A stretch of DNA of 64,000 bases, from assembly GCF_003614185.1 (NCBI RefSeq), contig NZ_KZ987724.1, positions 1,668,633 through 1,732,632 of the forward strand, in the 5' to 3' direction. The notes beneath the pieces are model-generated. The model ran no database searches, was not told the DNA's origin, and worked only from the letters and a program-made list of their open reading frames with translations. The number at the start of each line of letters is the position of its first letter. Positions within the stretch are counted from its first letter, which is position 1. Source of the stretch: Paenibacillus aceti (GTDB taxonomy: Bacteria; Bacillota; Bacilli; Paenibacillales; Paenibacillaceae). The position numbers were made by a program, and so were the translations under genes. Below are positions 11,862-63,033 of this stretch, piece by piece.

Positions 11862-12044
11862 TACCGAAACAGGGTATCGCTATTAGCCTCAAAACGAGCC
11901 ATTTCAAAATCTGACGAAACTGGGTATCGTTATTTGGGCAAATCAGGGGGGAAACGACGGTTTTTTACTCGAATAACGATATGGTGTTTCGTTAGATTAG
12001 AATGGGTGCTGATTTCGAGGAAATAGCGATATGGAGTTTCGTTA
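11862..12044. repeat. Quadruple stem-loop element A (TAACGA/TCGTTA family)
   Basis: Four units centred near 11872, 11922, 11984 and 12034, spacing 50-62-50. Each is a short palindrome of the form TAACGA-9 bases-TCGTTA (here TACCGA..TCGCTA, TGACGA..TCGTTA, TAACGA..TCGTTA, TAGCGA..TCGTTA). Loop orientation is plus, plus, minus, minus, so the whole element is also a 183-bp imperfect palindrome; the spacers between units 1-2 and 3-4 are also inverted copies. It starts 45 bases past the stop of the Asp-box lipoprotein gene. The rest of the gap 11595-12089 shows no gene. Confidence 0.8.
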
Positions 12045-31319: not shown

Positions 31320-31332
31320 GTTGTCCTCCTTT

Positions 31333-31523
31333 TATGCGCCTGCGGAGTTAGTTGTCGGATTCGGGAAAGGAAGTTCCCTACGCAAGGAAGTAACAATCTT
31401 TTTAATAATTTGTTACTATTCTACCTGCGCTTCACCCCAAGAATGCTAATCTGGTATCGCTCCATTATCAGACTAGCTCTTCGTTAAATCGTCCCCCGCA
31501 CTTGTTCTAGCAAGTTTCGGCCT
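31333..31523 (-). ncRNA. ydaO/yuaA c-di-AMP riboswitch
   Basis: Minus strand carries the conserved blocks of this class in order: CCGAAAC...GCGGGGGACGA, CTTGGGGTGAAGCGCAGGTA, GTAGGGAACTTCCTTTCCC, and CGAATCCGACAACTAACTC followed by CGCAGGCG. High c-di-AMP normally turns the downstream gene off. Here the aptamer ends only a few bases before AAAGGAGG of the LysM/3D gene and no poly-T terminator follows, so control may act on ribosome access or inside the aptamer. Confidence 0.9.
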
Positions 31524-31909
31524 TTTGAATATATCACAACTTTGTAACCAATAGCTCATGTAATTGTTACCATTTTCGCACAAAGCCTGATACGACGCGG
31601 ATTTCCACAACTAAAATAATGACAAAAATTACGTCATCTTCGTAGATTATAGACTAGTGAAAGTGGGCTGGTGGCTGTTGAGTCTTGGTGAGTTAGCTGA
31701 GTAAGTTAGAGTAGTAGAGTAATAGAGTTTCATGTGAGGGGCGAGAGCTAAGTTTAAGGGAAATTAGTCGATACATTCGTTCGTAGGAGCTAGTACGAGG
31801 CAAATTACTGCGCATGGTGGGGAAAATTTGGATATGGTGCATCTAGTGTGTGAATTCCTGCGAAAGTGCATCTTTTTCCTCCGTTTTAGTTCGATTGCGG
31901 AGAAATCAA
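31524..31909. other. Intergenic region without a gene
   Basis: No credible coding frame. It holds a 5-bp-arm hairpin (ATGAC...GTCAT near 31620-31640), a purine-rich stretch with loose GAGTNAG repeats (31675-31730), and CCTGCGAAAGTGCA near 31857-31870, which resembles the TTCCTGC units of the stem-loop element at 49.2-49.4 kb and lies 62 bases before the terminator centre at 31926. Confidence 0.5.
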
Positions 31910-48852: not shown

Positions 48853-49034
48853 TAACGAAACACAGAACGTTATTGGCTTCAAAACAAGGGCTCTGCGAAT
48901 CTAACGAAACTCCATAGCGCTATTTGAGCTAAAAGACAGCTTTCAGCAGCTATTTTAGCGATATAACGTTACCCTGTTTCGTTACATTTTCCGCAGGCCC
49001 TTTTGGGTCTGAATAGCGTTACCACGTTTCGTTA
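48853..49034. repeat. Quadruple stem-loop element B (TAACGA/TCGTTA family)
   Basis: Units centred near 48862, 48912, 48974 and 49024, spacing 50-62-50, orientation plus-plus-minus-minus as in elements A and C. Cores: TAACGA..ACGTTA, TAACGA..GCGCTA, TAACGT..TCGTTA, TAGCGT..TCGTTA, so arms have drifted while the spacing has not. 100 bases after the HAD gene stop. Confidence 0.8.
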
Positions 49035-49205
49035 GAGCTCGCTTGTGATCCTATATAGCACAAATCCCCGTCTCCAACCTGCATTTGCCCCATGACAACT
49101 AGTTCCTTCTATCTGCTTTCTACCCTCACTCGACCTATAATAGTAGAATAATACATATTTGCACAACACGCCCGGTTTATCAACCTATATCCGACCTGCC
49201 ATAGC

Positions 49206-49393
49206 AAATTCCTGCGTTTATGCAGGAATTTCACCTCCGTTCCAGTCTGGAATGATAAATTCCTGCAATAATGCAGGAATTCTCTCCAGATTGGCTTGAT
49301 TCGAAGGAAAATGGAGGAAAATCCTGCACTTTTTGCAGGAATTGGTGTAGAATAGGTGACTTTAGGCGATAAAGCCTGCATATTTGCAGTTTT
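49206..49393. repeat. Quadruple stem-loop element E (TTCCTGC/GCAGGAA family)
   Basis: Four hairpins: AAATTCCTGC/GCAGGAATTT (49206-49231), AAATTCCTGC/GCAGGAATT (49257-49282), AATCCTGC/GCAGGAATT (49320-49343) and the poorer AAAGCCTGCA/TTGCAGTTTT (49371-49393). Centres are 51, 62 and 50 bases apart. The 1-2 and 2-3 spacers pair partly (CCTCC..TTCC..TCTGG with CCAGA..GGAA..TGGAGG). It lies 3' of topB. The remainder of the gap 48753-49614 holds no credible gene. Confidence 0.78.
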
Positions 49394-52168: not shown

Positions 52169-52351
52169 TAACGAAACTACTAATCGTTATTTCATCAAAA
52201 ACAACGCTATTTCAAATCTAACGAAACTCCATATCGTTATTTGAGCGAAATCCCCCCATAACACCCCAAATCAGCTGCAATAGCGATACCCAGTTTCGTT
52301 AAAATCTACAGAAGTCCATTTGCCCCTAAATAACGATACCACGTTTCGTTA
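52169..52351. repeat. Quadruple stem-loop element C (TAACGA/TCGTTA family)
   Basis: Units centred at 52179, 52229, 52291 and 52341, spacing 50-62-50, orientation plus-plus-minus-minus. Cores: TAACGA..TCGTTA twice, TAGCGA..TCGTTA and TAACGA..TCGTTA: the best preserved of three copies. It starts 20 bases after the gltD stop and precedes that gene's terminator. Spacers 1-2 and 3-4 are inverted relatives. Confidence 0.85.
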
Positions 52352-62710: not shown

Positions 62711-62850
62711 CAGACTCCCCTCCCCCATATGAATTTCAAAGAATATATCAACAAAATAGAGTCAGGTCAACCCTTTTAAAACTAGAGTCTTCACTCTTTT
62801 TCGTGCCCAAAGATGTGAACATCCCCCTGTTCTGGCCAGATCACTCGGAC

Positions 62851-63033
62851 ACGGACATAAATGTCCGTTAGCGTTGATTCTGTGGCATCCCGCCCTTGTA
62901 ATGGACATTATTGTCCGTTACAAGGGAAATTGTCGTGAAAAATGGCATTTTGTGCTTCTAAGGGTCAAAAGTGTCCGTTAGAAGCGGGTAGTGGTCGTTT
63001 TCAGGCTCTAACGGACATTTTTGACCGCTAGAG
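62851..63033. repeat. Quadruple stem-loop element D (TAACGGACA/TGTCCGTTA family)
   Basis: Four hairpins: ACGGACAT/ATGTCCGT (62851-62868), CCCTTGTAATGGACA/TGTCCGTTACAAGGG (62893-62926), GCTTCTAAGGGTCA/TGTCCGTTAGAAGC (62954-62985) and CTCTAACGGACA/TGACCGCTAGAG (63006-63033). Centres are 50, 60 and 50 bases apart. Each has a 2-4 base loop. It lies between the GNAT gene and the P-loop gene, both transcribed leftward. The rest of the gap to 63340 has only the hairpin at 63149-63195. Confidence 0.82.

Follow-up and report, generated by a model that had tools for sequence, protein, structure and literature searches.

It is an open question, pursued chiefly in the REPIN-RAYT systems, why bacteria keep dispersed populations of repeats served by a single chromosomal protein. 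Miniature inverted-repeat transposable elements (MITEs) and small mobile repeats such as ERIC, Correia and BOX are non-coding, intergenic, 100-200 bp long, inverted in symmetry and present in many copies. Here we analyzed a repeat family of Paenibacillus aceti within a 64,000-nucleotide stretch of contig NZ_KZ987724.1 (positions 1,668,633 to 1,732,632; hereafter the window). The repeat unit consists of a direct pair of 21-bp motifs spaced by 50 bp, a centre of 62 bp and an inverted pair with the same 50-bp spacing, and it accompanies genes for an unnamed protein of about 218 amino acids, hereafter the partner. We favor, with a probability of roughly two in three, the reading that this element is a four-site array serving one complex of the partner protein, with paralogue-specific spellings (dialects), vertical inheritance and a dispersed population of copies.

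The elements share with MITEs and with ERIC, Correia and BOX repeats all of the traits listed above, but differ in that no target-site duplication was found, in their conserved internal 50-bp units and in their linked gene family. In common with REPIN-RAYT systems as described (PMC8049555, PMC2817692), the present one has dispersed extragenic palindromic repeats at high copy number, a partner gene on the chromosome that is accompanied by a repeat, amplification on a local scale, and repeats that persist where the gene is missing. The differences are that domain searches show no relation of the present partner to Y1 transposases, that four sites stand at fixed 50-62-50 spacing whereas a REPIN is two inverted REPs with a variable spacer, that compensatory changes are lacking here, and that the element lies on the 3' side of its gene (11/11) whereas RAYT genes are flanked on both sides, the exception being the D2_2 locus L121, with an element upstream too. 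No description of these repeats appeared among the papers listed from an open-access collection, which omits most subscription papers, and of 522 papers containing one of six 9-mers the 15 listed had no title with Paenibacillus. This repeat-plus-protein system has probably not been described before. We rate it as new on the ground that no part of it falls within a named system, although the logic by which it works, that of REPIN-RAYT, is known.

The original prediction had proposed three copies (A, B and C) of a four-hairpin unit with fixed 50-62-50 spacing and a plus-plus-minus-minus (++--) loop orientation, lacking a transposase. Reading all three elements bore out their positions and orientation, the exact spacing in A and C and, as claimed, a deviation of only 1 base in B; the element itself indeed encodes no transposase. 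The count has to be raised, as the window holds a fourth element, D, in a second spelling (Table 1). Searching the window for the motif TAACGAAACNNNNTANCGNTA with up to 3 mismatches gave 19 matches, some of them a single site read once per strand; shuffled sequences averaged 1.1 matches, with a maximum of 4. Genome-wide matching with exact patterns and a reversed-pattern control returned 182 plus-strand and 183 minus-strand copies of TAACGAAACNNNNTANCGNTA in P. aceti (365 in all) and 0 of the reversed pattern, and across Paenibacillus genomes copy number reaches well over 100 elements. Within two contiguous P. aceti blocks totaling 1.2 Mb, neighboring motifs (≤2 mismatches, <300 bp apart) stood exactly 50 bp apart in 25 of 28 ++ pairs and 27 of 28 -- pairs and 61-63 bp apart in 27 of 33 +- pairs, whereas random intergenic placement is roughly estimated to give about 0.1 pair at any one distance. 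In a 1.33-Mb sample made of these blocks plus loci fetched around matches, and thus partly match-selected, 57 of 86 motif clusters contained a ++-- unit whose spacings departed from 50-62-50 by at most 1 bp (in 45 of them not at all); extra 50-bp units occurred in 5 of the 86, and clusters without the unit were truncated, single or rearranged. Fixed spacing is therefore far above what random placement, the alternative named beforehand, would give. Of the 85 clusters flanked by called genes on either side, not one overlapped a gene by more than 30 bp (our own codon-score gene calls), and the flanking genes were oriented in tandem, divergently or convergently in 55, 15 and 15 cases, similar to long gaps overall (203, 64 and 38).

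The motif core is also far better kept in place than the spacers. We aligned 24 pairs of elements common to two genomes, leaving out the array site at P. aceti position 1745602, and counted changes in the 19 pairs with a 183-bp reference. Core changes amounted to 12/448 between genome G008 and Paenibacillus sp. GM2 (G003), 4/224 between D2_2 (G031) and GM2 and 19/336 between GM2 and P. aceti (2-6%), against 161/789, 111/394 and 186/592 in the spacers (20-31%); the references were picked for good motifs, which may lower core change on one branch only, and the gap between core and spacer exceeds a factor of two. Over all pairs the same comparisons contained 11, 8 and 37 indel events, with 8 of the 24 pairs free of indels. 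We read the difference as probable selection on sequence-specific sites, and retention of the core sequence at fixed spacing suggests protein-bound sites and not decaying transposons. Pooling 324 motifs, themselves chosen for motif likeness, from 81 non-redundant full elements (99 minus 18 at ≥85% identity) gave G5, A6 and T20 in 324/324 and C9 in 323/324, with variation at the middle bases and at positions 16 and 19. The drift that had been noted in the arms is thus not free.

By clustering the proteins encoded near elements we found one family, in three clades (loci D2_2 L121, G169 L320 and P. glycanilyticus L167), which occurs in 32 of 41 genus genomes with up to 11 matches per genome; the window itself does not contain the linked gene. 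The protein is predicted to carry a C-terminal winged helix and an N-terminal domain. It had nothing above cut-off in Pfam or NCBIfam; PADLOC gave weak helix-turn-helix-like matches only, and PHROGs one unnamed family below E 0.001, on the C-terminal part. Structure comparison of the full model was filled by winged-helix chains of the MarR/ArsR type, in line with a predicted winged helix-turn-helix fold, and nuclease titles were absent from the best 50 rows. Foldseek also matched the model weakly, along 188-207 columns and hence nearly its whole length, to the nuclease-plus-winged-helix proteins 6p4o and 1y88 (E 0.003-0.011, template-modeling score about 0.2-0.3), with no match among such rows at E ≤ 0.001. 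Of these, 6p4o is an XPB-Bax1 endonuclease complex, whose matched chains may be of either molecule, and 1y88 is AF1548. The N-terminal part may be a PD-(D/E)XK-type nuclease; D71, E84, Q86 and H91 are invariant in 7 homologues. Between GM2 and G008 the gene has a synonymous divergence (dS) of 0.39 and a nonsynonymous divergence (dN) of 0.031, and the protein is under purifying selection. A phage origin was rejected, with no relative in phage records or viral contigs, as was a plasmid origin: one record, a 2.7-Mb Paenibacillus cellulosilyticus replicon, matched at 30% identity, with no annotated gene there.

Every close homologue that we read carries an element within about 430 bp downstream (11/11), namely the three founding loci and all eight homologues picked by homology alone (Table 1), whereas neither of two distant P. 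aceti paralogues (34% and 30% identity) does. For one G008 gene we estimate the chance of a downstream element at below 1%, from 83 pairs in 6.5 Mb. Coordinates indicate further adjacency of gene and element in G020, G035, G068, G292 and G294, an unsystematic set outside the 11/11. Apart from L121, no upstream element was seen at the partner loci read on that side, within the stretches fetched. Upstream of the gene, six loci (L324, L325, L326, L121, L320 and L167) have a conserved leader, GGTCGTNAAGNANACGCCG, followed by a hairpin and mostly a T-run; it is attenuator-like, with stem sequences that differ among clades, and an Rfam search of six partner-gene loci, L121 not among them, gave no match.

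Table 1. Elements in the window and motif arrangements downstream of the eight partner genes picked by homology
Feature	Genome	Position	Motifs (strand)	Dialect	Start spacing	Remark
Element A	P. aceti	window 11862-12044	11862 (+), 11912 (+), 11974 (-), 12024 (-)	first, TAACGAAAC	50-62-50	left half G-type, right half C-type
Element B	P. aceti	window 48853-49034	48853 (+), 48902 (+), 48964 (-), 49014 (-)	first	49-62-50	first motif one base short
Element C	P. aceti	window 52169-52351	52169 (+), 52219 (+), 52281 (-), 52331 (-)	first	50-62-50	
Element D	P. aceti	window 62849-63030	62849, 62899, 62959, 63009	second, TAACGGACA	50-60-50	near-palindromic 22-mers
L324	GM2	downstream	++--		50-62-50	
L325	G008	downstream	++--		50-62-50	
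L331	GM2, second gene	downstream	++--		50-62-50	
L332	G008, second gene	downstream	++--		50-62-50	
L326	G014	downstream	+ - -		62 and 50	
L327	G005	downstream	+ - -		62 and 50	degenerate first motif about 430 bp away
L328	P. aceti	downstream	array		50/61	
L333	G008, third gene	-2, 48 and 160 bp from stop codon				first motif overlaps stop codon

At these loci, the spelling of the element follows the paralogue. TAACGAAAC accompanies the first gene group, TAACGGAAA the second group in GM2 and G008, TAACGGAC the third G008 gene and the P. aceti homologue, and TAACGGAAC occurs in G014, where 19 of 20 pairs among the matches listed begin TAACGGAA. Central pairs of TAACGAAAC are confined to 5 of 41 genus genomes (P. 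aceti 90, GM2 136, G008 63, D2_2 41 and G024 2); across the order, 11 of 296 genomes have them, spread over 4 of 48 genera and two families. The geometry thus recurs in other genera of the family, and all 10 order-wide loci read have the 62-bp centre, each with recognizable outer motifs on at least one side. Among the matches listed, named carriers of the geometry are Paenibacillus sp. GM2, D2_2, Fux382_bin13, P. glycanilyticus, P. daejeonensis, BK033 and J2TS4, while 16 loci from other organisms have exact motifs without the four-site geometry.

A pattern for the spellings matched pairs in 28 of the 41 genus genomes, the reversed control giving 0-1 per genome. At least 5 pairs were present in 24 of 27 genus genomes with a close homologue (E ≤ 1e-50) versus 1 of 14 without (Fisher 4e-7, kinship ignored); the exception, G067, contains fragments of such a gene, and the 9 genus genomes without any homologue had 0 pairs. 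Across 88 genomes of the family, at least 5 pairs occurred in 25 of 54 with a close homologue versus 4 of 34 without (p 0.001; reversed control 0-2), a looser link that may reflect other spellings or genes without elements.

Under our preferred reading, each element would offer four DNA sites of 21-22 bp with a strong TAACGNAMC-like half, spaced so as to seat one protein complex. The winged helix would bind by reading the TAACG half-sites, and several copies of the protein would gather on the four of them. The N-terminal domain, perhaps a nuclease, would act on the DNA, on rare occasions copying the element elsewhere and multiplying it locally. A partner gene would carry its own element just downstream, different paralogues would use different dialects, and gene and elements would pass vertically, the latter as a population scattered between genes; copies may persist where the complex is useful to the host, or at least tolerated. 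More tentatively, at somewhat below even odds, the Paenibacillaceae may have independently evolved a counterpart of REPIN-RAYT on a nuclease-like/winged-helix protein, in which every paralogue would start and maintain a dialect population of its own, with unchanging geometry, and the protein may police the core as well as copy sites.

Several observations weigh against the preferred reading. G004, G017 and G068 have a close homologue but 0, 1 and 1 pairs, and 29 of the 54 family genomes with a close homologue have fewer than 5 pattern matches. Because the genomes in the tables are related, the co-occurrence p-values are too small. P. aceti itself has its 90 first-dialect central pairs with no first-group homologue (best 53%, beside second-dialect sites). 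The 37 indel events in GM2-P. aceti pairs, a raw count, mean that spacing does decay. No convincing target-site duplication appeared in 99 elements with all offsets tried, and no clean empty site in D2_2, GM2 or G008, where the flanks are too diverged to define a junction. As for the protein, the N-terminal domain has no Pfam match and, modeled alone, is of low confidence (predicted local distance difference test, pLDDT, 54), and the full-length model is the one good model of five (pLDDT 78.6 versus 48-58).

An alternative that we consider unlikely is that the elements are architectural or regulatory sites of the host, operators that were dispersed long ago and are now immobile, with the partner as a DNA-binding organizer or regulator whose N-terminal domain is no active nuclease. 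A motif core constrained in place and a predicted MarR/ArsR-type winged helix would fit this view, as would the sharing of all 11 placed G008 elements with GM2 (reverse 15/18, with a few loci counted twice); D2_2 likewise shares 5/5 with GM2, and 0/2 with P. aceti. The first-dialect copies of P. aceti also look older and lack a near-identical dispersed pair (45 copies, nearest identity median 81%, best 88.5%), with no first-group gene found. Unlike classical operators, however, the elements lie closer to the 3' ends of genes, at a median distance of 84 bp, than to the 5' ends, at 166 bp. P. aceti elements are moreover mostly absent from G008 (2/12 in common) and D2_2 (0/13), so that sites must be gained or lost often. 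Sharing with GM2 was 9/16, a figure inflated because the GM2 windows were centred on elements, and 3/10 in a 400-kb region fetched regardless of elements. Element C has orthologues between the same flanking genes in GM2 and G008, and D2_2 lacks both the element and the neighboring gene. Also against immobile sites, the second-dialect copies of P. aceti, beside which its homologue sits, look recent (8 copies, nearest identity median 92%). Having the gene does not always mean recent copying, since in G008 and D2_2, both of which have a first-group gene, none of 10 elements per genome formed a dispersed pair above 84%; high nearest-copy identities in GM2 were discounted because overlapping loci may contain the same arrays twice.

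That the elements are ordinary MITEs, transposon ends spread by some transposase and now decaying beside a gene that is coincidental or a passenger, is improbable. Inverted ends, intergenic dispersal, the recent look of second-dialect copies and the tandem arrays of GM2 would all be expected of MITEs, yet the core is much better kept than the spacers at fixed sites, no convincing target-site duplication showed in the 99 elements, and the gene is tied to the element by adjacency and co-occurrence.

The original prediction had instead proposed selection for structure and symmetry of the whole unit about its centre; we regard such selection, acting on an RNA or single-stranded DNA hairpin, as largely refuted and very improbable. 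Element C does fold as a long hairpin at -48.2 kcal/mol (z -8.95 versus shuffles), as any inverted repeat would, but the compensatory changes that hairpin selection predicts are lacking. In 22 aligned P. aceti elements, the four small hairpins showed no pair with changes in both partners, and the long palindrome covaried much as shuffles do (0.085 versus 0.083); in the 81 elements, pairing in the local hairpins did not exceed that of column shuffles, and in the long palindrome it fell slightly below (z -3.2). At position 19, 187 of 324 motifs have a C that faces a nearly invariant A, which would give a G-U wobble if the other strand were read as RNA. At position 16, 85 of 324 have A or G facing an invariant A, with no compensation. 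The symmetry is itself broken, as 57 of 99 elements have C-type middle bases in one half but G-type ones in the other, so that a cruciform would hold unpaired bubbles there. Element polarity was independent of transcription (29 same versus 26 opposite). Finally, REP or REPIN elements served by a RAYT (Y1) transposase would follow the same logic of dispersed extragenic palindromes and a vertically inherited partner gene (PMC8049555, PMC2817692), but this has next to no chance of being correct, the Y1_Tnp profile (PF01797) having matched 2 of 14 genomes searched and, at E ≤ 0.001, none of the element-rich GM2, G008 and D2_2, for which RAYT as partner is refuted. P. aceti has an IS200-like Y1 transposase, with PF01797 at 14 places whose identical scores make them look like insertion sequences.

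Some further features were recorded alongside. In GM2, whole elements are repeated in tandem at L133, L160, L162, L195 and L287, each unit carrying 17-61 bp of local flank and most arrays having 4-5 units, and at several of these loci G008 carries a single element at the orthologous place. Several second-dialect copies of P. aceti, such as that around window 62760-63032, have an adjoining repeat, AAGTCGATCTTCCGACTTGAAGACGCC..., on one side, so this repeat may extend further and be composite. At window ~49205-49285 a different small inverted repeat, AATTCCTGC...GCAGGAATT, occurs twice in 80 bp, and a similar string ends L330. An Rfam scan of the window found a cyclic di-AMP (c-di-AMP) riboswitch (ydaO/yuaA leader; 31321-31532, minus strand, 70.7 bits) as the sole family at gathering score, and no Rfam family fits the elements.

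For REPINs, there is reported to be little evidence of what benefit they could bring (PMC8049555). If the Paenibacillus elements are indeed four-site arrays served by the partner protein, they would provide a second system, unrelated to REPIN-RAYT, whose architecture is fixed, whose spellings track the paralogue and which comes with many natural pairs of gene and element. In it, site specificity, mobility, host benefit and the co-evolution of protein and site could be compared directly across dozens of species. They would also offer a first way into the function of an unnamed protein family that is present in 32 of the 41 genus genomes.
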